From an uncultured Butyricicoccus sp. (GTDB lineage Bacteria; Bacillota; Clostridia; Oscillospirales; Butyricicoccaceae), in NCBI GenBank assembly GCA_944381965.1, contig CALWMO010000003.1:1-46969 (forward strand): 46,969 bases of DNA. Reading direction: 5' to 3'. The notes under the pieces are model-generated. The model saw nothing but the letters and a program-made list of their open reading frames with translations. It was not told where the DNA came from and did no database searches. The position numbers were made by a program, and so were the translations under genes. The first letter of the stretch is position 1. The number at the start of each line of letters is the position of its first letter. Below, piece after piece: positions 3,443 through 24,703 of the stretch.

Positions 3443-3672
3443 CAAACAATTGTGTAATAAAAAAAGAAAATAATAAAAAACAATCAAAAAATAGTATTAT
3501 TTGCATGTTTAACGTGAAGAACATACATAAGTCTGTGTATTTGCTGGATAGACAGGCGTATGTAACGCAAGGGATAAAAAATAAAACTGCAAGTTTAAAG
3601 TACTTAAAAGGGAAAAGGTGTTAAAGTTGCAAGATTGCAAATTAAATCTTGCAAAAAATTTTTGTTAATGCA

Positions 3673-3701
3673 TTGACGAAGTGGATAAAACGTAGTATAG
3701 T
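3673..3701 (+). promoter_or_regulatory. Predicted promoter of the DUF4914 gene
   Basis: TTGACG (3673-3678), 17-base spacer, TATAGT (3696-3701). It gives a leader of roughly 105 bases before the start codon at 3814. Confidence 0.55.
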
Positions 3702-3725: not shown

Positions 3726-3780
3726 AATCTAAAGTTTAGATTTAAGTTATATTTGGCGACATATTGGGTGCAGAGCACCC
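3726..3780 (+). promoter_or_regulatory. Structured leader or operator upstream of the DUF4914 gene
   Basis: Two elements lie between the promoter and the ribosome site. The first is a perfect palindrome, AATCTAAA-G-TTTAGATT (3726-3742). The second is a compact hairpin, GGGTGC-AGA-GCACCC (3766-3780), followed by TTTCTT, which resembles a weak terminator or attenuator. The first could be a repressor site just downstream of the start point. It matches no riboswitch class that I recognise. Confidence 0.45.
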
Positions 3781-3813
3781 TTTCTTATAGCCGTAAGGAG
3801 GAATTGATTTTAC

Positions 3814-5685
3814 ATGAACCGTTTGCTTAAAAAGTTCACCTTTTCACCTGAAATTGTGGACGTAATCGAAAACTGTAAGGGTATTTTTATACCAACAACA
3901 AAGCAAGAACTGTACGAGATGGTATTTGGTACAGGTCGCTCTGGTAAATATGATGTTGTATACGACGTTCCTGAAAAGGGTGAGGTTGTTGAGGCAACCG
4001 TTGTTCGTGCAAAAAATGGTGTAGTTGTCAATTATGTTGAGGACTATATGCGTCGTCGTGACCCTGACTGTATGCGTATCGGTGATGATAAGCCTACAGA
4101 TAAGCCACGTTTTTCTGATGTTTATGGTTTCCCATTTGCTGATATGAAAAAGCAGACACTAGATTGGTTAAAAGGTCAAGAGCTCATTTTCATGCCATTT
4201 AATTCCGGCGGTAATGTTTATGGCTATGGTTCTATGCTTATCTGCCCAAGAAATGCTGCATTCTTTGCTTTTGCACTAGCTCATCTTCAGGGCTTTGTTT
4301 CCGCTGAGGAAACAGAAGGCTATGAGCCTCGTGCAATCGTTTATGTTGCACCACCATTTAGACATACTCACTTTAATGGCAAGCAGGTTGTTGTTCATAA
4401 CCGTCTTGATAATTGCCATGAAGTATTTTCTTATAACCTTTATCCAGGACCATCTGCTAAAAAGGGCGTATATTCTGTTCTTCTCGATATAGGCGAGCAG
4501 GAAGACTGGGTAACTGCTCACGCATCTGCTGCACGTTTAACAACTCAGTATGATAACGAGCTTGTTATCATGCATGAGGGTGCATCTGGCGGCGGTAAGA
4601 GCGAAATGCTGCAAGACGTAGCTCGTACAGAAGATGGTCGTGTACTGCTTTCTGAAAACACTGTTACAGGTGAAAAGACTCTGCTAAACCTTGGCAGAAC
4701 TGCTATGATTGAGCCAGTATGTGATGATATGGCTACTTGCTATCCAAAACTACAAACAGGTAGCGGTAAGCTCGCTCTTGTTGATGGTGAGGACGGTTGG
4801 TTCTTGCGTATGGACGGCGTTACACACTATGGCTGTGACCCAGTATATGAACGCATCTGCACAGAGCCAGATGAACCACTTTGCTTCTTTAACATTCAGG
4901 GTGTAGTTGGTGCGACTAGCCTTATCTGGGAACATACTCTGGATTCTAATGGCAAGCCATGCCCTAACCCTCGTGCTATTGTACCTCGTGCGAAAGTTCC
5001 ACATATCGTAACCGAGCCTGTTGAGGTTGATATCCGTTCTTTTGGTACTCGTATGCCACCTTCAACTCGTGAAAACCCTAACTATGGTATTATGGGTATG
5101 CTTCACTTCATTCCACCAGCACTTGCTTGGATGTGGCGTTTAGTTGCTCCTCGTGGATTTAAAAACCCATCTATTGTAGGTGGCGGTGACCTAAAGAGTG
5201 AGGGTGTAGGTTCTTACTGGCCATTTGCTACTGGTATGCGTGTAAAGCAAGCTAATTTGCTTCTAAAACAAATTATTGATAATCCTAACACCCGTTATGT
5301 GCTTATCCCTAACCAGCATATCGGTGTATACAAAGTAGGCTTTGCTGCTGAATGGTTAAGTCGTGAATGGCTCAGCCGTCATAACGGTCATGTAAAGACC
5401 GAAAAACTAACTCCAGCACGTTGCCCACTGCTTGGTTATGCTATGACCGAGATGACCATTGAAGGTCAGTCTATCCGCTCTAAGTATCTGAGAACCGAGC
5501 TTCAAGACCGTATGGGTGAGGACGGTTATGATGCAGGTGCAAAGATTCTAACCGACTTCTTTGCTAAGGAGCTAGATAAGTTCTATACAGATGACCTTGA
5601 CCCACTAGGTAAGCAAATTATTGATTGTTTCCGTAACGGTGGTACTCTTGAGGACTATTGCAAGTTAACCCCAATGCACTTTTAA
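3814..5685 (+). CDS. DUF4914 family protein, PEPCK-like P-loop kinase fold of unknown function
   Basis: This 623-residue cytosolic protein resembles, from memory, the DUF4914 family found in Clostridia and Bacteroidetes. Residues 255-265 read EGASGGGKSEM, a kinase-1a/Walker A loop of the kind seen in phosphoenolpyruvate carboxykinases, with K262 and S263 as the phosphate-binding pair. Acidic DD at 304-305 and VDGEDGW near 323 may be metal and nucleotide contacts. It lacks the classic ATP-PEPCK GLSGTGKTT form, so calling it PckA would overreach. Rich use of CGT, GGT and GCT codons, like gap at 23.7 kb, suggests high expression. AAGGAGG at 3795-3801 sets the start. It is monocistronic, between a strong promoter and a strong terminator. 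Confidence 0.75.
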   Translation: MNRLLKKFTFSPEIVDVIENCKGIFIPTTKQELYEMVFGTGRSGKYDVVYDVPEKGEVVEATVVRAKNGVVVNYVEDYMRRRDPDCMRIGDDKPTDKPRFSDVYGFPFADMKKQTLDWLKGQELIFMPFNSGGNVYGYGSMLICPRNAAFFAFALAHLQGFVSAEETEGYEPRAIVYVAPPFRHTHFNGKQVVVHNRLDNCHEVFSYNLYPGPSAKKGVYSVLLDIGEQEDWVTAHASAARLTTQYDNELVIMHEGASGGGKSEMLQDVARTEDGRVLLSENTVTGEKTLLNLGRTAMIEPVCDDMATCYPKLQTGSGKLALVDGEDGWFLRMDGVTHYGCDPVYERICTEPDEPLCFFNIQGVVGATSLIWEHTLDSNGKPCPNPRAIVPRAKVPHIVTEPVEVDIRSFGTRMPPSTRENPNYGIMGMLHFIPPALAWMWRLVAPRGFKNPSIVGGGDLKSEGVGSYWPFATGMRVKQANLLLKQIIDNPNTRYVLIPNQHIGVYKVGFAAEWLSREWLSRHNGHVKTEKLTPARCPLLGYAMTEMTIEGQSIRSKYLRTELQDRMGEDGYDAGAKILTDFFAKELDKFYTDDLDPLGKQIIDCFRNGGTLEDYCKLTPMHF

Positions 5686-5697
5686 TAAAATATTTTA

Positions 5698-5730
5698 AAA
5701 TGTCTGCTTTTTTAGCAGACATTTTTTTTG
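5698..5730 (+). terminator. Terminator of the DUF4914 gene
   Basis: ATGTCTGCT (5700-5708) pairs with AGCAGACAT (5714-5722) and is followed by eight T. Confidence 0.88.
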
Positions 5731-8915: not shown

Positions 8916-11198
8916 TTATTTATTCTTTAAACCAATAACAATTTTTTCAGCGGTTATAGGAAGCTCTCTAATTCTAACACCGCAAGCGGTAGCAACAGCA
9001 GATGCAATAGCAGGTGATGGAGTGTTAATAACAACTTCACCGATAGATTTTGCACCAAATGGGCCAGATGGCTCATAACTGCTTTCAAATTCAACTCTAA
9101 CCTTGTTTATATCAAGACGAGATGGAATTTTATACTGCATAAATGAGTTAGAATAGTTTACGCCTCTATCATCATAGATAACATCTTCATAGAGTGCCAT
9201 GCCAATGCCTTGAACAAGTCCGCCTTCGGTCTGTACTCTTGCAAGATTAGGGTTGATTGGTGTACCACAGTCAACCGCTGCACAGTAGTCAATCAGCTCT
9301 ACCTTACCAGTCTCGGGGTCAAGCTCGATTTCAGCCGCACCCGCCATAAATGGAGGTGGTGAAGTAGGAGAAGAATGGCTGACAGTTGCAGCAAGCTCTC
9401 TATTGCTAAAGCACTGACCTTTATAACCAACTTGTTTTCTGGTTACAAACTTTTCAGGGTCTGCAACAACATAAACCTTTTGACCGTCAAAGTCAACATC
9501 ATCTACATTAACATTCAGCATTTCCGCACCTGTTAACAAGATTTTATCTCTGAGCTCCACGCAAGCCTTAACACAAGCCATACCTGTTACATAGGTTGTA
9601 GCTGATGCATAAGAACCAGAGTCATAAGGTGAAACGTCTGTGTCTGATGCATAAACCGCAATATTTTCCATATCACAGTCAAGACAATCTGCTGCCATCT
9701 GAGCGAGAATGGTATCACAACCAGTACCCATATCAGTACAGCCGATAAGCATATTATAATCGCCATCATCACCCATACGAATGGTTACAGAACCAACGTC
9801 AACATTGGAAATACCAGAACCTTGCATAGCCATTGCAATGCCAACCGCACGGATTTTACCGTTTGGCAGAGTGATAGGCTTAGCCTTTTTGTCCCAGTCA
9901 ATCATATTTTTAACACGCTCAACACAGCGGTCTAAAGCACATGAAGTAGCGGTTTCGCCATAGTATGCAGGCATAACCTGACCTTCACGCACAAGATTTA
10001 TTTCACGCATTTTAACAGGGTCGATATTTAAAATTTCCGCAAGTTCATTTACAGTGGATTCTACAGCAAAAATACCTTGTGTTGCACCATAACCACGGTA
10101 AGCACCCGCAGAAAGGGTGTTTGTATATACAACGTCCCAAGTGAATTTAAAAGCCTCTTGTTTGCCATACATAGGAATAGGCTTATGAGCGGATAGACCA
10201 ACAGTAGTTGGGCCATGTTCACCAAAAGCACCTGTGTTAGACAGTGTATATAGGTCAATAACCTTGATTATACCGTCCTTTGTAGCACCCATACGCACAG
10301 TAAGCTCCATGCTGTGACGTGGAGAAGATGCAATCATAGACTCATAACGTGAGTAAACAATTTTTGCAGGTCTGCCAGTTTTTAGTGTTACAATAGCAGG
10401 GTAAACTTCGGTGACAACTGTCTGTTTTGCACCAAAACCACCGCCAAGACGAGGCTTTATTACACGGATTTGGGTTTTTGGAATATCAAGAGCATGTGAT
10501 AGAATACGGCGAACATGGAAAGGAACTTGTGTGGAAGAAATAACATTTAATCTGCCATAGGTATCAAGCTGAGTGTAAGTTCTGAATGTTTCCATCATAG
10601 CTTGCTGATTTTGCTTTGTGCGGTAAGTGCGTTCGATTACAACATCACACTTTGCAAATGTGCCTTCAACATCACCATGGCTATCACTGCCAGATGCACA
10701 GAGATTTCGCATATTGTCTGCACCAACAGGGCAGAGGGATTTCCAGCTTTCCTCTGGGTGAACGAGAATTTTATTGTCCTTAGCCTTACGCATGTCTAAA
10801 ACAGGCTCAAGCACTTTATATTCAACCTTGATAAGTTTTAAAGCCTTATCGACTGCTTGTTCGGTTTCGCCGGCAACAATAGCCACGGCATCGCCTACAA
10901 AACGAACTCTACGGTCTAAAATAAGTCTATCATATGGAGATGGCTCTGGATAGGTTTGACCTGCCATGGTAAAACGGCACTGTGGCACATCTTCATGGGT
11001 TAGTACACACACAATACCTGGAACTTTCATTGCAATATTGGTGTTAATATTGGTGATAAGTGCATGAGCGTGAGGAGAACGTAAAACTTTAACGATAAGG
11101 CAATCAGCTGGGGCTAAATCATCAGTATAAACAGGTTTACCAGTGGTTAATGCCTTAGCATCAGATTTTATAACACCTGTACCTACATATTTATTCAT
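8916..11198 (-). CDS. xdhA: Xanthine dehydrogenase-type molybdenum-binding subunit
   Basis: This is the large catalytic subunit (760 residues) of a three-part molybdenum hydroxylase. Visible motifs are GKPVYTDD at the N-terminus, RLGGGFGAK (molybdopterin site), AYRGYGATQ and, near the C-terminus, GPFGAKSIGE, whose Glu is the catalytic base of the family. It would hydroxylate xanthine, hypoxanthine or another N-heterocycle in the cytosol. Close relatives are Se-dependent in some Clostridia, which sequence alone does not show. I place the start at ATG 11198: AAGGAGG is seven bases upstream, and ATGA overlaps the stop of the Fe-S subunit. A TTG two codons upstream would sit against the ribosome site. 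Confidence 0.9.
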   Translation of the reverse strand: MNKYVGTGVIKSDAKALTTGKPVYTDDLAPADCLIVKVLRSPHAHALITNINTNIAMKVPGIVCVLTHEDVPQCRFTMAGQTYPEPSPYDRLILDRRVRFVGDAVAIVAGETEQAVDKALKLIKVEYKVLEPVLDMRKAKDNKILVHPEESWKSLCPVGADNMRNLCASGSDSHGDVEGTFAKCDVVIERTYRTKQNQQAMMETFRTYTQLDTYGRLNVISSTQVPFHVRRILSHALDIPKTQIRVIKPRLGGGFGAKQTVVTEVYPAIVTLKTGRPAKIVYSRYESMIASSPRHSMELTVRMGATKDGIIKVIDLYTLSNTGAFGEHGPTTVGLSAHKPIPMYGKQEAFKFTWDVVYTNTLSAGAYRGYGATQGIFAVESTVNELAEILNIDPVKMREINLVREGQVMPAYYGETATSCALDRCVERVKNMIDWDKKAKPITLPNGKIRAVGIAMAMQGSGISNVDVGSVTIRMGDDGDYNMLIGCTDMGTGCDTILAQMAADCLDCDMENIAVYASDTDVSPYDSGSYASATTYVTGMACVKACVELRDKILLTGAEMLNVNVDDVDFDGQKVYVVADPEKFVTRKQVGYKGQCFSNRELAATVSHSSPTSPPPFMAGAAEIELDPETGKVELIDYCAAVDCGTPINPNLARVQTEGGLVQGIGMALYEDVIYDDRGVNYSNSFMQYKIPSRLDINKVRVEFESSYEPSGPFGAKSIGEVVINTPSPAIASAVATACGVRIRELPITAEKIVIGLKNK

Positions 11199-11665
11199 TG
11201 ACAATCCTCCTTGCTCGCAAGATATGCTTTAATAGCTCTAAGCTGACCTACATAACCTGTGCATCTGCAAAGATTACCAGATAAATATTCTCTAATTTCA
11301 TCTTCTGATGGGTTTGTAAGCTCATTTTTCATTGCGATAATATTCATAATAAGTCCAGGGGAACAGAAACCGCATTGTTCTGCTCCTTCCTTGGCTAAAA
11401 ACAAACCGATTTCCTCAGCCTCTTGTTGTTTACCTTCAAGTGTTATAATATCGTGACCATCTGCACGAACTGCAAGCATAGTACAAGAAAGTATAGGTTT
11501 TTCGTCCATAAGCACTGTGCAAAGACCACAGTTAGAGGTTTCACAGCCACGCTTTACAGACTTACAACCTTTTTCACGCACATATTCTAAAAGAGGCTGG
11601 TCAGGACTTACAGCATCTTCAATTTTTTTGCCATTTAGAGTAAAAGAAATTAAAATCTTTGCCAT
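11195..11665 (-). CDS. xdhC: Xanthine dehydrogenase-type [2Fe-2S] subunit
   Basis: 156 residues, the normal size of the small iron-sulfur subunit. The N-terminal plant-ferredoxin-like half carries GCETSNCGLCTV plus a later Cys in ILSC. The C-terminal helical half has QCGFCSPG and NLCRCTGY. These eight cysteines bind two [2Fe-2S] clusters that pass electrons from the molybdenum centre to FAD. It lies between the FAD and Mo subunits and overlaps the latter by four bases, indicating translational coupling. Confidence 0.92.
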   Translation of the reverse strand: MAKILISFTLNGKKIEDAVSPDQPLLEYVREKGCKSVKRGCETSNCGLCTVLMDEKPILSCTMLAVRADGHDIITLEGKQQEAEEIGLFLAKEGAEQCGFCSPGLIMNIIAMKNELTNPSEDEIREYLSGNLCRCTGYVGQLRAIKAYLASKEDCQ

Positions 11666-11672
11666 AAATAAA

Positions 11673-12479
11673 TTAAACCTCCTGATTTAAAGCTAGCAAT
11701 GCACGACGAACAAGCACTCTAGTAAGGTGACGTCTAAAATCTGCACTGCCACGCATATTGCTTGAAAAGTTAAGGTTATCCGCAACATAATCTGCAAATT
11801 TATTTGCACTTTCTTCTGTAATGCCATCGTTTAATATGCCATTGGTGTCTAAAACAAGACTAGCTCTTTGTGGTCTTGCACCAATAGTAATTCTAAAGCC
11901 GTTATCTTTGAAATCTTCAGGTAATTTGCTTACACAGCAAGCGATAACAGGAAAATCGGTAGCTGTTGCACGATGGGTTATATAATGAGTTTTCTGATTA
12001 TTTTTTGGCAGAATAACATGTGTTAAAATATCTCGGTCATGAGGCATATTTACAAAATCAGATAGTTTAACTTTGCCTGTATGATAAAGTTTAACTTCAG
12101 CACCTAAAGCGAGCATAAGTGTCAGCGGGTCTGAAAAACCGAATCTGCCCCAAATAGAACCGCCAATAGTTACGCAGTTTCTAAATTGAACGCCGACAAT
12201 ATGGCGTAAGCTCTCTTTGATAGCACTGCCAAAATAGCTGTTTATAGTCTCATTTGTTTCTATTTGACGCAACGACACCATACAGCCAAGGATAAATTCG
12301 GTGTCAGTTTCTTCGATTTTATCAAGACCAAGACCAGAAAGGTCAATAGCTGTTTTAATAGAACGATTGCCCATTTTAAGCCAACCACAACCACCTAAAA
12401 TAGTGGAGGTTTTCTTTTGATTTAGCGAATAAGCCTGTTCAAGAGTTTCAGCTTTTACATAGTTATCTATTGTGAACAT
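11673..12479 (-). CDS. xdhB: Xanthine dehydrogenase-type FAD-binding subunit
   Basis: 268 residues in the CO dehydrogenase flavoprotein/XDH medium-subunit family. ILGGCGWLKMG near residue 30 and NCVTIGGSIWGRFGFSD near 105 are the two FAD pyrophosphate-binding signatures. It is first in the operon, ahead of the Fe-S and Mo subunits, and should deliver electrons to NAD+ or ferredoxin. The ATG at 12479 is preferred: AAAGGAG is seven bases upstream, whereas an in-frame ATG two codons earlier nearly touches that site. No Mo-cofactor maturation genes are in the window. Confidence 0.88.
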   Translation of the reverse strand: MFTIDNYVKAETLEQAYSLNQKKTSTILGGCGWLKMGNRSIKTAIDLSGLGLDKIEETDTEFILGCMVSLRQIETNETINSYFGSAIKESLRHIVGVQFRNCVTIGGSIWGRFGFSDPLTLMLALGAEVKLYHTGKVKLSDFVNMPHDRDILTHVILPKNNQKTHYITHRATATDFPVIACCVSKLPEDFKDNGFRITIGARPQRASLVLDTNGILNDGITEESANKFADYVADNLNFSSNMRGSADFRRHLTRVLVRRALLALNQEV

Positions 12480-12638
12480 TCGCATTCTCCTTTTTTTACA
12501 AACATAACAAAAGCCGCCATAAAAAGTGTGGCAGCAAACAGGTTAGATATCGAAAACCAAACGCTGCGTTTTAAATTTGATTTTGAACATACAGCGAAAA
12601 AAACAAAAGATTTTCGGGTATAAATGTAGTATATAATT

Positions 12639-16917: not shown

Positions 16918-17814
16918 TTATTCAGCTGTGTTTTGCTCTGCTTTAGCAGCCTCAGCAGCCTGTTTAGCCTTTTCAGCTTGAGCTTTCATCATAGCCTCAA
17001 ACTTTTCCTTTTCTTCAGGGGTAGGAATTGGCTCAATACAGCTTCTTGGGCAGACCTTAGCACACATCTTACAGTTTTTACACTTGTCATAATCAATTTT
17101 AGCAACGCCATTTTCAACATGGATTGCATCAAACTTACAAGTCTTTTCACACTTCTTACAGCCAATACAAGATACTTCACAAATCTTCATTGCAACAGCA
17201 CCCTTGTCTTGGTTTGTACAGTTAACATGAACCTTTTTAGACTTTGGAAGTAAGTCTATGAGTTTCTTAGGACAAGCACTTACACATTTGCCACAAGCAA
17301 CACACTTTTCAGTGTCAACTAGAGCCTTGCCATCAACAATGTGGATAGCATCAAATGCACAAGCGGAAACACAAGAGCCTAAGCCCATACAGCCGAAAGC
17401 ACATTCCTTAGGGCCACCAGCTACACGCATAGCCGCATTACAGTCCTGAAGACCTTCATACTTAGCCTTATCAATAGCCTTACAGCCACCAGAACAATGT
17501 ACATGAGCTACCTTAGGCTCTTCAGCAGTAACCTCAGCACCCATAACAGCAGCAATTTTCTCTGCACAAGCAGCACCGCCAACAGGACAACCGTTTACAG
17601 GAGCTTTGCCTTCAACGATTGCAGATGCTAGACCGTCACAACCTGGGTAGCCACAGCCACCACAGTTTGCACCAGGCAGACATTCACGAACAAGTGGCAC
17701 TCGTTCGTCAACTTCAACAGCAAAAACTTTTGCTGCCACGCCCAGAAGTATTGCAAATAGCAAACCCATTATACTAAGAGATGCTACTGCAAAGATAATA
17801 TTTGTAAAATCCAT
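16918..17814 (-). CDS. rnfB: Rnf complex subunit B, polyferredoxin
   Basis: 298 residues. An N-terminal membrane helix (about 5-28) is followed by the CGGCGYPGC cluster motif (near 51-60) and later 4Fe-4S motifs: CMGLGSCVSAC, CVACGKCVSACP, CIGCKKCEKTC and CKNCKMCAKVCP. The C-terminal tail is an Ala/Glu/Lys-rich helix. RnfB takes electrons from reduced ferredoxin into the complex. It is the last gene of the operon. Additional clusters compared with proteobacterial RnfB are usual in Clostridia. Confidence 0.94.
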   Translation of the reverse strand: MDFTNIIFAVASLSIMGLLFAILLGVAAKVFAVEVDERVPLVRECLPGANCGGCGYPGCDGLASAIVEGKAPVNGCPVGGAACAEKIAAVMGAEVTAEEPKVAHVHCSGGCKAIDKAKYEGLQDCNAAMRVAGGPKECAFGCMGLGSCVSACAFDAIHIVDGKALVDTEKCVACGKCVSACPKKLIDLLPKSKKVHVNCTNQDKGAVAMKICEVSCIGCKKCEKTCKFDAIHVENGVAKIDYDKCKNCKMCAKVCPRSCIEPIPTPEEKEKFEAMMKAQAEKAKQAAEAAKAEQNTAE

Positions 17815-17834
17815 TTCTCACGCTCTCCTTTTGC

Positions 17835-18467
17835 TTACCAGATTTTCAGACCAGAGAAGCCCATAAATGCCATTGCAAGCAGAGATGCAGACACCAGTGC
17901 GATTGGGAAACCTTCAAAGCACTTAGGACATTTTGCGGTAACTTCCAGACGCTCACGGATAGATGCAAAAATAACGATTGCAACTAAATAACCAACACCT
18001 GCAAATACACCGTAAACAATAGAGCCAAGCAGTGAATACTGATTGTCGATGTTGGTGATAGCTGCACCAAGTACAGCACAGTTAGTGGTAATCAGTGGCA
18101 GGAAGATACCAAGTGCTTGATAAAGAGATGGCATTGCCTTTTTCATAAACATTTCTACAAACTGTACAAGTGTAGCAATAACCAAAATAAATGCGATTGT
18201 ACGCATATATTCAAGCTCTAGTGGAACAAGCACAAAATAGTTTACAGCCCAAGAAACAATAGATGCAAGAGCCATAACGAAAATAACAGCCATACCCATG
18301 CCGACTGCGGTATCGGTCTTTTTGGATACGCCGAAGAATGAACAACAGCCTAAAAACTGTACAAGGATATAGTTATTTACAAGCACAGCTGAAATAGCAA
18401 GGAAGATTATATCAGTCAGTGCCATGCCATCAGGCAAACCTGCCTGCACAGCAGCAAAGTAATTCAT
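17835..18467 (-). CDS. rnfA: Rnf complex subunit A, membrane subunit
   Basis: 210 residues with six transmembrane helices. It carries NYILVQFLGCCSFFGVSKK and TNCAVLGAAI, each with the conserved Cys that ligates the intramembrane iron-sulfur cluster shared with RnfE. It abuts rnfE (stop and start adjacent), with AAAGGGGG overlapping the rnfE end as its ribosome site. Confidence 0.95.
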   Translation of the reverse strand: MNYFAAVQAGLPDGMALTDIIFLAISAVLVNNYILVQFLGCCSFFGVSKKTDTAVGMGMAVIFVMALASIVSWAVNYFVLVPLELEYMRTIAFILVIATLVQFVEMFMKKAMPSLYQALGIFLPLITTNCAVLGAAITNIDNQYSLLGSIVYGVFAGVGYLVAIVIFASIRERLEVTAKCPKCFEGFPIALVSASLLAMAFMGFSGLKIW

Positions 18468-19094
18468 TTACTTATCCCCCTTCTTATTCATAAAGTACTG
18501 GATTGCAGCAAGTAGAAATCCCATCATAAGGAAACCGCCCGCTGGCAGAATCATCATTGAAATTGGGTTTTCATAAAGAAATGGCAGTTTAATACCAAGC
18601 TTATCTGCACCTACATAACCAGAAAGAATTGTGCCTGCACCAAGCAGCTCTCTGAAAAATCCCATAAGCACAAGAGCAAAGGTAAAACCGATACCCATGC
18701 AAATGCCGTCAAGAGCGGAAGGTAGAACCTTATTTTTAGATGCATAAGCTTCTGCACGACCTAAAATGATACAGTTAACAACAATAAGAGGCAGGAACAG
18801 ACCAAGAGATGCAGCCAGTGAAGGGATAAATGCCTGAAGGCTTAAATCAATAATGGTAACGAAACCTGCAATAATTGTTATAAATGCTGCAATACGAACC
18901 TTTTCAGGGATAAACTTACGTAGCAGAGAAATAACAATGTTTGAACAAATAAGTACAACAGTAGCCGCTAAACCCATACCGATAGCATTAGATAGGGAAG
19001 TTGTGGTAGCTAATGCTGGACACAGACCGATAGTCTGCATAAATACAGGATTGTCCAGAAGGACAGCTGAATTTAATCTATCTTTGAATTTCAT
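18468..19094 (-). CDS. rnfE: Rnf complex subunit E, membrane subunit
   Basis: 208 residues, paralogous to RnfA with inverted topology. NPVFMQTIGLCPALATTTS near the N-terminus and VVNCIILGRAEAYA hold the paired cysteines expected at the RnfA/E interface. It is preceded by GGAGGACA and lies 11 bases behind rnfG. Confidence 0.94.
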   Translation of the reverse strand: MKFKDRLNSAVLLDNPVFMQTIGLCPALATTTSLSNAIGMGLAATVVLICSNIVISLLRKFIPEKVRIAAFITIIAGFVTIIDLSLQAFIPSLAASLGLFLPLIVVNCIILGRAEAYASKNKVLPSALDGICMGIGFTFALVLMGFFRELLGAGTILSGYVGADKLGIKLPFLYENPISMMILPAGGFLMMGFLLAAIQYFMNKKGDK

Positions 19095-19105
19095 AATTGT
19101 CCTCC

Positions 19106-19684
19106 TTAGCCTTCAAGACTTAAAACATAATTTGCAGCGGTGTTTACAGCAAGTGTTACTGCACGAGAAGTAATAGTAGCACCTGTGATAGATACTATAT
19201 CGCCGCTATCTTTAGTAACAGCCAGAGAGCCATCAGCAGGCTTGCCCGCAAACTGCTCAATCCAAGTAGGGTCAGCTTGTGCCTTAGCACCAAGTCCTGG
19301 GGTTTCTGCGTGGCTTGTAACCTGTGCACCAGCGATTGTGCCGTCAAGATTTACACCAACAACAACAGTTAGTGTGCCACCAAAACCAGAAGGTAAAACC
19401 TCCATACAATAGCCAACAGTTTCACCATCAACAACAGCCTTATAAATATTCTGTATTGCTGGTGTGTTTTTATCTGGGGCTGGAACTTCGGATACCTCTG
19501 CAAGCTCAAATTCAGCACCAGGAATTAACTGTTCCATAGCACTTGCACGAGTTGCCTCTTTATTCTTTTCAATCTGTGGAGCTGTAACCTGATTTACAAA
19601 ACCAAGCAGCAGTGCAGTTATGAATGTGATTAAAAACAGTACCAGAGCAAGCATGCCCATGGATTCTTTTTTAGATTCTGTCAT
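19106..19684 (-). CDS. rnfG: Rnf complex subunit G, covalent-FMN subunit
   Basis: 192 residues with one N-terminal membrane anchor (about 10-32) and an extracytoplasmic FMN-binding domain. SITGATITSRAV near the C-terminus is the flavinylation motif (S/TGAT), whose Thr carries FMN through a phosphoester. HAETPGLGAKA is the second family hallmark. It starts two bases after rnfD. A flavin transferase (ApbE) would be needed and is not in the window. Confidence 0.94.
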   Translation of the reverse strand: MTESKKESMGMLALVLFLITFITALLLGFVNQVTAPQIEKNKEATRASAMEQLIPGAEFELAEVSEVPAPDKNTPAIQNIYKAVVDGETVGYCMEVLPSGFGGTLTVVVGVNLDGTIAGAQVTSHAETPGLGAKAQADPTWIEQFAGKPADGSLAVTKDSGDIVSITGATITSRAVTLAVNTAANYVLSLEG

Positions 19685-19686
19685 GA

Positions 19687-20682
19687 TTACTTGCCCTCCT
19701 TAGCGTCAGAATAACCGAACTTTCTTGGCAGACACTTCTGGTCAATCATCCATACAAGAGCATTCATAATCAGAATGGAGTAGGAAACGCCTTCTGGCAA
19801 ACCACCAAAATAACGGATAAATACAGTAAGTACGCCACAGCCTATACCAAATATAATCTGTCCCTTTGGAGTAACAGGGCTTGTAACATAGTCAGTAGCC
19901 ATAAAGAATGCACCAAGCATTAAGCCACCAGAAAGAACTTGGCTAAACATCCATTGAAGTCTGTCAACATCACCCATTGGGAACAGGAATGTTAAAACAG
20001 CAACAGTTAAAATATAAGCAGCTGGAATATTTATAGTGATAACCTTGCGGATTAACAGATAAATACCGCCAACTAAAAGAGCAAGTGCACAGGTTTCACC
20101 AATAACACCACCATGCTGACCAAAGAATAAATCCATTAGGCTTTCAGTTGGCAGAGTTTTTGCCTTTAGAGATGCAAGTGGTGTAGCAGTTGAAATAGCA
20201 TCTGTAACTTCAACGTTGCCGAATAAAGGCAGTTTCTGATGTGGCTGAACCCAAGTGGTCATAAGTGCAGGCCAAGAAGCCATCATAAATGCACGAGCAC
20301 CTAAAGCTGGGTTCATAAAGTTTTTACCAATGCCACCAAACAGCATTTTTACAACAATAATTGCAAATGCACCACCAATAACAGGCATCCAGATAGGAGC
20401 TGCAACAGGTACATTAAATGCAATTAAAATACCAGTAACTACCGCAGATAAATCGCCCACAGTAGATTTTTTATGGTTTACTTTACAGTAGAGCCACTCA
20501 AAAACAACACAGGAAATAATAGTTGCCACTGTTATAGTCAGTGCACGGAAACCGAAAGTAAAAATAGCAACGGCAAGTGCAGGAATAAGAGCTAAAACAA
20601 CATCAAGCATTAAGCTTTTTGTGTTGTCCTCAGCTTTTATATGTGGCGAGGAGGTGACAACTACTTTACTTAAATCATACAT
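19687..20682 (-). CDS. rnfD: Rnf complex subunit D, membrane flavoprotein
   Basis: 331 residues with about nine or ten transmembrane helices in the NqrB/RnfD family. DAISTATPLASLK (near 161-173) is the expected covalent FMN threonine site. NPALGARAFMMASWP is another conserved block. It forms the ion-conducting membrane core with RnfA and RnfE. It follows rnfC by 15 bases. Confidence 0.94.
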   Translation of the reverse strand: MYDLSKVVVTSSPHIKAEDNTKSLMLDVVLALIPALAVAIFTFGFRALTITVATIISCVVFEWLYCKVNHKKSTVGDLSAVVTGILIAFNVPVAAPIWMPVIGGAFAIIVVKMLFGGIGKNFMNPALGARAFMMASWPALMTTWVQPHQKLPLFGNVEVTDAISTATPLASLKAKTLPTESLMDLFFGQHGGVIGETCALALLVGGIYLLIRKVITINIPAAYILTVAVLTFLFPMGDVDRLQWMFSQVLSGGLMLGAFFMATDYVTSPVTPKGQIIFGIGCGVLTVFIRYFGGLPEGVSYSILIMNALVWMIDQKCLPRKFGYSDAKEGK

Positions 20683-20697
20683 TCGTTTTTACCCCCA

Positions 20698-22089
20698 TTA
20701 TTTGCTTTCTTCCGAATTTTTTTCTGCTTCAGCCTTGGCTGCTTCAGCGTCAGCCTTTGCCTTAGCTGCTGCACGCTCTGCCATAACTTGAGCTTTTGTC
20801 AGGCGGAAACGCTGTACAAGCTGAATTCTAGCAGGGCACACATATGAACATGAACCACACTCGATACAGTCCATAGCACCTAGAGAAACACAAGTGTTAT
20901 AATCGCCAGCATTGCCATATGCATTCATCATCATAGGCATAAGATGCATTGGACAAGCATTTATACACTTACCGCAGCGGATACAGCTTGGATTTTCCTC
21001 ACGCTTATCCTCATCACCGCAGAAAGCTAAGAATGCATTTGTTCCCTTAAATACAGGGATTTCAAGAGAGAACTGTGAAACACCCATCATAGGGCCGCCC
21101 ATAATCAGCTTGTTTGGAGCTTCTTTAAAGCCGCCACAAGCATCAATAAGACGTTCAACTTGAGTACCGATTCTAACTTCAAGGTTTTTAGGTTCAACGA
21201 TAGCAGAACCAGAAACGGTAACAATACGGCGTACAACAGGCATACCAGTTGTAAATCTACGATAAATCGCACCAGTAGTATCTACATTGAATACTGCACA
21301 ACCTGCATCAGCTGGAAGTTTACCGCTTGGAACTTCTCTACCAGTACAAGCGTTAATAAGCTGTTTTTCTGCACCCTGTGGGTATTTACACTTTAAAGGA
21401 TACAGCTTTAAACGGCTGTCATCAGCGATAAGCTCATTTATTTTAGCAAATGTATCGCTCTTATTTTCCTCAATAGCAATGATAGCATTAGGAACTTCCA
21501 TGATATCAGCAAGCATTTTAAGTCCGCCGATAACTTCTTCTGGACGTTCTAAAAGCAATCTGTGGTCAGATGTGATATATGGTTCACATTCAGCAGCGTT
21601 TACTATAATAGTGTCGCACTTGCCAATACCTGACTGGATTTTTACATGAGTTGGGAATGTAGCACCACCATGACCCACCATACCAGCAGAACGAATAGTT
21701 TCAATTCGTTCCTCATTGGTCATGCCAGCAAAGTCATAAGGGTGGACAGACTCATGTAAACGGTCTTCTTTGTCATTTTCAATGACTATACTCATGATTT
21801 TGCTTCCGTTTGGGTGCAGTCTTGGTTCAACTGCAATTACCTTACCAGAAACAGTTGCATGAACTGGTGCAGAAACAAAACCGCCAGCTTCAGCAATAGG
21901 CTGACCTAGGTCAACTATATCGCCGGTTTTAACTATAGGCTTTGCAGGAGCACCGATGTGCATAGAAACAGGCAGAATCACCACATCAGGTGTCGGCAGT
22001 ATTTCTATGGCTTTAGTGTTTGTTGCGGATTTATAACCTGGGTCAGAATGCGGACCTGGGTGAATACCGCCACGAAACGAGTACACCAT
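20698..22089 (-). CDS. rnfC: Rnf complex subunit C, NADH-binding Fe-S subunit
   Basis: 463 residues from the preferred start. Domains in order: an N-terminal barrel (FRGGIHPGPH), the GMVGHGGATFPTHVK NADH/FMN fold, an SLBB segment, then CIRCGKCINACP and CIECGSCSYVCP for two 4Fe-4S clusters, and a basic/Ala tail. It exchanges electrons with NAD+. It heads rnfCDGEAB, the clostridial order. ATG at 22089 is chosen because GGAGAGGTG precedes it and homologues begin near the FRGGIHPG block. An in-frame extension to 22194 would translate across the promoter leader and is rejected. Confidence 0.93.
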   Translation of the reverse strand: MVYSFRGGIHPGPHSDPGYKSATNTKAIEILPTPDVVILPVSMHIGAPAKPIVKTGDIVDLGQPIAEAGGFVSAPVHATVSGKVIAVEPRLHPNGSKIMSIVIENDKEDRLHESVHPYDFAGMTNEERIETIRSAGMVGHGGATFPTHVKIQSGIGKCDTIIVNAAECEPYITSDHRLLLERPEEVIGGLKMLADIMEVPNAIIAIEENKSDTFAKINELIADDSRLKLYPLKCKYPQGAEKQLINACTGREVPSGKLPADAGCAVFNVDTTGAIYRRFTTGMPVVRRIVTVSGSAIVEPKNLEVRIGTQVERLIDACGGFKEAPNKLIMGGPMMGVSQFSLEIPVFKGTNAFLAFCGDEDKREENPSCIRCGKCINACPMHLMPMMMNAYGNAGDYNTCVSLGAMDCIECGSCSYVCPARIQLVQRFRLTKAQVMAERAAAKAKADAEAAKAEAEKNSEESK

Positions 22090-22196
22090 GAATTTCACCT
22101 CTCCATTTAAATTATGTGTACAGAAAATAATAAATACTACAATAAAATAACTAGTAGTAGAGTAAATATGGTAAAACGCAATTTTACTCAACATAA

Positions 22197-23638: not shown

Positions 23639-24703
<1,065 letters not shown>

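Follow-up and report, generated by a model that had tools for sequence, protein, structure and literature searches.

What reaction does a DUF4914 protein carry out? The question is posed by a gene at positions 3814–5685 (forward strand) of the window, by which we mean the whole 46,969-nucleotide stretch of DNA analysed here. The gene opens with an ATG, preceded by the strong ribosome site AAGGAGG at 3795–3801, and encodes a predicted PEP carboxykinase (PEPCK)-fold enzyme of 623 residues that matches the Pfam family DUF4914 across residues 12–619 (E=3.3e-302). It is a real, sound gene under strong purifying selection, with a dN/dS of 0.010–0.044 against its four nearest relatives. The nearest public contig belongs to a Butyricicoccus and carries a 100% identical DUF4914 protein; the window's genome itself is a MAG of 69.5% completeness. 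An earlier note on this DNA had described the product as a highly expressed protein of no known function with a PEPCK-like P-loop, and had taken its codon bias to point to an abundant central enzyme or kinase. We found no paper on DUF4914 in the open-licence PMC literature, a search that does not cover subscription papers and preprints.

Sequence comparison with individual proteins and family models gave few leads. The protein scores 12.6 bits against PF01293 (ATP-PEPCK), below the Pfam cut-off of 26.5, PF00821 (GTP-PEPCK) produced no Pfam match at E up to 10, and neither the NCBIfam models nor the Pfam HPr kinase/phosphorylase model matched it. Searching PDB sequences with the family profile (hmmsearch) returned no match, and phmmer returned weak, unrelated matches only. 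An AlphaFold2 model built from 31 sequences reached a pLDDT of 89.9 and a pTM of 0.89, and all 50 of the best Foldseek matches listed from the PDB were PEPCKs (top E=5.3e-22). By VIA, the Thermus ATP-PEPCK chain 2pc9_D aligned with Z=30.0 and an rmsd of 3.0 over 488 residues, spanning model positions 5–610, and GTP-PEPCK chains reached a Z of about 26. Judging from this model, DUF4914 almost certainly has the complete two-lobed PEPCK fold across residues 5–610. Because the structural match runs over the full length, the likeness goes beyond a shared P-loop and the whole enzyme is present. The structural comparison that the earlier note had proposed thus came out on the side of PEPCK; HPr kinase, its other candidate, was not among the 50 structural matches listed, which by itself does not exclude it.

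The model also singles out a segment near the active site. A pLDDT below 50 occurs only at residues 452–457 and 465–467, both of which lie inside the almost invariant stretch 447–474 (PRG..NPS..EGVGSYWPFATG; positions 5152–5235, forward strand), where the alignment to ATP-PEPCK sets the ERG...F region of that family. From its likeness to PEPCK structures, we infer that this stretch of lowest model confidence and near-invariant sequence is a mobile active-site lid.

The longest alignments to the DUF4914 model among the matches listed came from two PPi-PEPCK chains (PDB 6k31 and 8e1u), which covered 578 and 570 residues at 17–18% identity with Z of 28.2–28.4. PPi-PEPCKs have been described as evolutionarily unrelated to ATP- and GTP-PEPCKs in PMC8100219, and the match of these chains to a PEPCK-fold model at Z of about 28 contrasts with that statement. 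It could be argued that DUF4914 is itself a PEPCK that uses PPi or phosphate and so resembles the PPi type in function, given that these two chains align over more residues than any other chain listed and that Thermotoga, of which T. maritima carries DUF4914, has a PPi-dependent phosphofructokinase (PMC3561251). We regard this reading as improbable, since DUF4914 has an invariant Lys and Ser in its P-loop and an invariant Asp pair, as in the nucleotide-using types. ATP-type chains also gave slightly higher Z values, although this difference of less than 2 is not decisive. The comparison with the PPi type is by structure only, and the likeness in fold over 570–578 residues stands beside a marked difference in length, 1109–1115 residues against the 623 of DUF4914.

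We then placed DUF4914 relative to the nucleotide-dependent families by profile–profile alignment. The DUF4914 alignment comprised 93 rows from Bacillota and Actinomycetota, the most distant of them 49% identical to the window protein; four of 96 loci had been dropped (one broken gene, three fragments), and one row (L021) repeats the window. The ATP profile was made from 13 ATP-PEPCKs, excluding the divergent L116 and L117 and L035, a near copy of L033, and the GTP profile from 12 GTP-PEPCKs, excluding L123 and L127, whose longest frame did not correspond to the right gene. With hhalign, DUF4914 matched ATP-PEPCK with a probability of 97.3 (E=1.7e-11, 483 columns) and GTP-PEPCK with 49.0 (E=1.7e-4); using the 93 rows, these values became 97.9 (5.4e-13) and 57.8 (1e-4). 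As a yardstick, the ATP and GTP profiles matched each other with 97.7 and 1.6e-12 (98.1 and 1.3e-13 in another run), and six reversed-profile controls gave E values of 0.08 or more. The distance from DUF4914 to ATP-PEPCK is therefore about that between GTP- and ATP-PEPCK, and at the level of sequence DUF4914 forms a separate branch that belongs to neither family. In a midpoint-rooted tree of 34 rows, the four Actinomycetota rows fall within Bacillota, a placement that suggests transfer.

The alignments carry over to the active site. PEPCK enzymology assigns the contacts for substrate, metal and nucleotide to a small set of residues, and the ATP and GTP alignments, made separately, agree on R82, Y210, H236, S258, K262, S263, E326 and R387. 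None of these positions, nor K216/K217, D304/D305 or R413, varies in any of the 93 rows. R82 (4057–4059; all coordinates here on the forward strand) falls on the substrate-site Arg of ATP-PEPCK (TGRS) and GTP-PEPCK (VARVE) in both alignments. The stretch Y210-PGPSA-K216-K217 (4441–4464) lies on the PEPCK Tyr and Lys pair (YxGExKKS in the ATP type), the two lysines coinciding exactly with those of the ATP type and being off by one in the GTP alignment. H236 (4519–4521) is set on the metal-ligand His of both families, and the P-loop GASGGGKS (residues 256–263; 4579–4602) on GLSGTGKT of ATP-PEPCK. The kinase-2 acidic pair D304-D305 (4723–4728) matches the GDD of GTP-PEPCK; the first hhalign run against ATP-PEPCK, the one of 483 columns, left this pair unaligned, and the 93-row ATP alignment puts D304 on the second Asp of GDDE, one position off. 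E326 (4789–4791) meets the invariant Glu after kinase 2, and R387 of NPR (4972–4974) the invariant NxR Arg, in both families. R413 of FGVRMPP (5050–5052) corresponds to the substrate-site Arg (GGRR) in the GTP alignment only and has no ATP-type partner. Finally, as regards the aromatic guanine pocket of GTP-PEPCK, F510 (93/93 rows) aligns with the Tyr/Phe of the GTP-type PGFGEN motif and Y506 with a Trp preceding it; the F510 match hints weakly that the purine may not be adenine.

DUF4914 thus has the metal and nucleotide set of the PEPCK superfamily (Lys, His, P-loop Lys and Ser/Thr, Asp), as well as matches at the positions contacting oxaloacetate or PEP: R82, Y210 and S258 in both alignments, and R413 in that with GTP-PEPCK. 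The canonical PEPCK motifs that the earlier note found missing are indeed absent as literal strings, but the catalytic residues are present, aligned and invariant. Likewise, the PEPCK-like P-loop it had reported turned out to belong to a full-length PEPCK fold with an ATP-PEPCK profile match and an invariant active site. The signs of high expression are weaker than it had claimed. Its refuting scenario, a canonical pckA gene in the same genome and a loss of nucleotide-binding residues, is not what we observe: the P-loop is invariant, and the window's genome, 69.5% complete, yielded no PEPCK. An inactive or regulatory PEPCK-fold relic, for which nothing direct speaks apart from the family being uncharacterised, is very hard to credit, as the catalytic set is invariant across two phyla, dN/dS is 0.01–0.04 and codon usage is among the window's most gap-like.

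A more serious alternative is that DUF4914 is a PEPCK-fold kinase that kept the metal and nucleotide sites and phosphorylates another small acid or a protein, as HPr kinase does with HPr. HPr kinase is a P-loop kinase that shares part of the PEPCK fold. Such a role would fit the distance of DUF4914 from any characterised PEPCK and unusual invariant runs such as MRRRDPD, YNLYPGPSAKKG and EGVGSYWPFATG. We nevertheless consider it unlikely: the positions aligned with the oxaloacetate/PEP contacts (R82, Y210, S258, R413) are invariant too, and what has been kept is the whole two-lobed enzyme, beyond the kinase lobe, the match to PEPCK running over its whole length. We therefore keep to a PEPCK-type enzyme as the preferred reading.

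With ATP-PEPCK (PF01293; EC 4.1.1.49) DUF4914 shares the fold and the Arg, Tyr, KK, His, P-loop and Glu positions, whereas it is about 100 residues longer, carries an extra segment between the P-loop and kinase 2, has in the Arg of FGVRMPP a residue without counterpart, and scores below the family cut-off. With GTP-PEPCK (PF00821; EC 4.1.1.32) it has in common the fold, a similar length, the kinase-2 DD, the Arg of GGRR and C-terminal stretches that align with PGFGEN and TPIGY; in contrast, its P-loop is of the SGGGKS kind, as opposed to PSACGKT, and the profile match is weak (probability 49–58, with no Pfam match). Separately from DUF4914, we noticed a divergent PEPCK-like family of about 550–630 residues with the P-loop GLSG[AS]GKST, at L116:178–1974 (+), L117:376–2025 (+), G306:C3, G307:C2, G308:C34 and G309:C15. 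Its members pass PF01293 (E of about 1e-16 to 1e-22) and remain far below every NCBIfam PEPCK cut-off; they are possibly another uncharacterised PEPCK branch.

If DUF4914 were a PEPCK, its distribution might be expected to bear on that of the known enzymes. We surveyed 299 genomes of the phylum and 14 control genomes. In the phylum sample, DUF4914 occurred in 31 genomes, ATP-PEPCK over the cut-off in 126 and GTP-PEPCK in 33. A simple replacement of PEPCK by DUF4914 was rejected, as any PEPCK was found in 11/31 genomes with and 142/268 without DUF4914 (p=0.087, not significant); for the ATP type alone the figures were 7/31 and 119/268 (p=0.021). Adding 16 named isolates, hand-picked from 66 loci, to the 31 sample genomes gave 47 DUF4914 genomes. 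Among these isolates, none had a canonical ATP-PEPCK, one had a GTP-PEPCK and four (G306–G309) had the divergent PEPCK-like protein, in spite of which the latter were counted as PEPCK-lacking. As to whether DUF4914 genomes lack pckA, the check proposed in the earlier note, none turned up in the window's own genome, and 12 of 47 have a canonical PEPCK alongside DUF4914, a coexistence that speaks for the kinase alternative.

The exclusion pattern sharpened only once carboxylases were added to the PEPCK count. More than half of the DUF4914 genomes (27/47, made up of 17 of the 31 sample genomes and 10 of the 16 isolates) were without a recognisable ATP- or GTP-PEPCK, PEP carboxylase, one-piece pyruvate carboxylase or large PycB-type protein; four of the 17 sample genomes in this group are less than 90% complete (G000, G238, G262, G286). 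The same gap in oxaloacetate enzymes is seen in gut isolates that produce butyrate, among them Agathobaculum butyriciproducens (G300). Among PEPCK-lacking sample genomes, a carboxylase was present in 3/20 with DUF4914 as compared to 54/80 without (p=3e-5), the 80 being the first of 126 such genomes. Dropping four weak large frames changed the contrast to 3/20 against 50/80 (p=1e-4). Genomes are not independent, and relatedness was handled only by counting genera, which gave 3/10 with against 45/68 without DUF4914 (p=0.039). This correlation between DUF4914 and an anaplerotic gap weighs against the kinase alternative. Of note, 26–30 of the 80 genomes without DUF4914 and without PEPCK also lack all carboxylases sought, and some anaerobes therefore manage without these enzymes, perhaps by aspartate import, malic enzyme or an archaeal-type PEP carboxylase.

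Counting carboxylases required the PYC/OADA domain matches to be sorted, and these fell into three frame sizes. Frames of about 1150 residues are one-piece pyruvate carboxylases. The class of 580–720 residues was accompanied by an adjoining biotin-carboxylase-like gene of 446–457 residues in 9/9 inspected loci (L130–L137, L145); in the one pair that was typed, the best model was pyruvate carboxylase subunit B and the partner was TIGR00514. These nine loci, in Clostridia without canonical PEPCK, combine a PycB-type protein with a biotin domain (about 625–650 residues) and a biotin carboxylase of about 450 residues. The third class spans 440–520 residues. Its member in the window's own genome (L139) adjoins a biotin carrier and OadB and therefore counts as a decarboxylase and not as an enzyme that supplies oxaloacetate. 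L141 and L142 hold an OadA-like gene without an adjoining OadB. Two DUF4914 genes are broken by internal stops (G060:C1:1076688–1078554 and G251:C14:19334–19952). Both genomes have an alternative oxaloacetate-forming enzyme: G060, which is among the three DUF4914 genomes with a carboxylase, has a PycB–AccC pair, and G251 has a GTP-PEPCK.

Outside the phylum sample, Thermotoga maritima was the sole DUF4914 carrier among the 14 control genomes. It had no match over cut-off to PF01293, PF00821 or PF00311, and its genome matches PYC_OADA and OAD_beta, the decarboxylase families. For T. maritima MSB8, PMC3561251 lists neither pepck nor oaadc; it concludes that Thermotoga is without proteins for the oxaloacetate bypass and reports that Thermotoga species encode a PPi-dependent phosphofructokinase besides the ATP type. 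Our reading predicts a genuine annotation gap in T. maritima, one that is filled by DUF4914.

How the gene is controlled was addressed from its upstream DNA. The promoter proposed earlier is borne out: a sigma-70-like TTGACG-17-TATAGT at 3673–3701 (forward strand) is conserved in 11 Butyricicoccus leaders, with ATTGACG invariant in 11/11. An inverted repeat, TGCAAG-N14-CTTGCA (3628–3653, forward strand), is also conserved, occurring exactly in 25/65 regions upstream of DUF4914 and with at most one mismatch in 37/65, as compared to 0.06% in shuffles. In 1.24 Mb of examined DNA there are 27 exact matches, including two copies of the window's, and every one precedes DUF4914; the repeat is a probable operator. 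Its end lies some 20 bp before the −35 box on the upstream side, where activator sites are typically found, and we infer that an activator would bind there. The other two elements claimed as signs of careful control exist, but only at strain level. The 17-bp palindrome AATCTAAAGTTTAGATT (3726–3742, forward strand) was found within three mismatches in 5/65 upstream regions, all from the nearest strains, and the sequence of the leader hairpin GGGTGC-AGA-GCACCC (3766–3780, forward strand) is not kept past these strains either. The leader folds moderately better than shuffles (z=−2.3). With no Rfam family match in the leader and neither element conserved, a riboswitch or other leader RNA was rejected.

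The codon bias of DUF4914, said to rival that of gap, is raised and lies well below it. Its gap-like codon score of −0.09 ranks third of the window's 39 ORFs (median −0.66), gap itself scoring 0.63, and its effective codon number is 39.4 compared to 30.9. Near gap (23675–24703), six genes at 16918–22194 (reverse strand) presumably encode an Rnf ion-pumping complex, and several of them are among the ORFs of the window whose codon usage is most gap-like. Three further genes at 8916–12485 (reverse strand) resemble molybdenum hydroxylase subunits, for example those of xanthine dehydrogenase. Downstream of DUF4914, a palindromic stem-loop followed by a T run (5697–5725, forward strand; listed on the minus strand, the stem being palindromic) is a probable terminator, and a single-gene transcript would therefore be expected. 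Open frames of about 600–1000 residues run antisense to the gene in 24/67 loci (for example L045, L046, L049 and L069) and most likely arise as a side effect of codon bias.

Gene neighbours did not disclose the function. After ORF clustering of 67 DUF4914 regions, no function-indicating neighbour family was common to several genera, and inference from neighbours was rejected as these regions gave local synteny only, for example in Lacrimispora, where the adjacent genes are, by our assumption from sequence, pur genes. The lack of a partner gene conserved across genera in the 67 regions is a further point against the kinase alternative.

Taken together, the predicted fold, the profile alignments with their invariant residues and the phyletic pattern make it likely that DUF4914 is a fourth PEPCK lineage, beside the ATP, GTP and PPi types, with a probable PEPCK-type reaction. 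This would most likely be PEP + CO2 + NDP <-> oxaloacetate + NTP at a PEPCK active site, where H236, a Lys of K216/K217 and D304/D305 would coordinate the catalytic metal, K262/S263 would bind the phosphates of the nucleotide together with their metal, and R82, Y210 and R413 would contact oxaloacetate or PEP, with the flexible 447–474 segment closing over the site. Dependence on a nucleotide is probable because the P-loop Lys/Ser and the Asp pair are invariant. In Butyricicoccus and relatives, the direction would probably be towards oxaloacetate, as many such genomes have no other visible route to it. The reaction, its direction, the preference for a nucleotide over PPi, the choice of nucleotide and the jobs of the residues are drawn by analogy from PEPCK enzymology.

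A wider and more tentative proposal is that many gut Clostridia, and Thermotoga as well, might rely mainly on DUF4914 to form oxaloacetate, as part of a Na+ pump bypass and switched by an activator. Where the genome also encodes an oxaloacetate decarboxylase that pumps Na+, as the window's does (L139), the two enzymes could together bypass pyruvate kinase and conserve energy: PEP to oxaloacetate would yield one NTP, and oxaloacetate to pyruvate would pump Na+. In Butyricicoccaceae, an activator at TGCAAG-N14-CTTGCA would turn on DUF4914. Among PEPCK-lacking genomes, OAD_beta was found in 19/35 with DUF4914 and in 15/45 without (the first 45 of 126). This coupling to the Na+ pump is not significant (p=0.07) and was kept only within the bypass proposal.

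PEPCK connects the breakdown of sugars with oxaloacetate, and the PEP–pyruvate–oxaloacetate node sets energy yield and carbon flow. DUF4914 may fill the PEPCK role in gut and hot-spring bacteria that seemingly have no PEPCK, and if it is a PEPCK, a step that fixes CO2 and yields NTP is added to genomes now modelled as having none. Moreover, a familiar fold built around a new active-site frame would help to show how PEPCKs select their phosphate donor.
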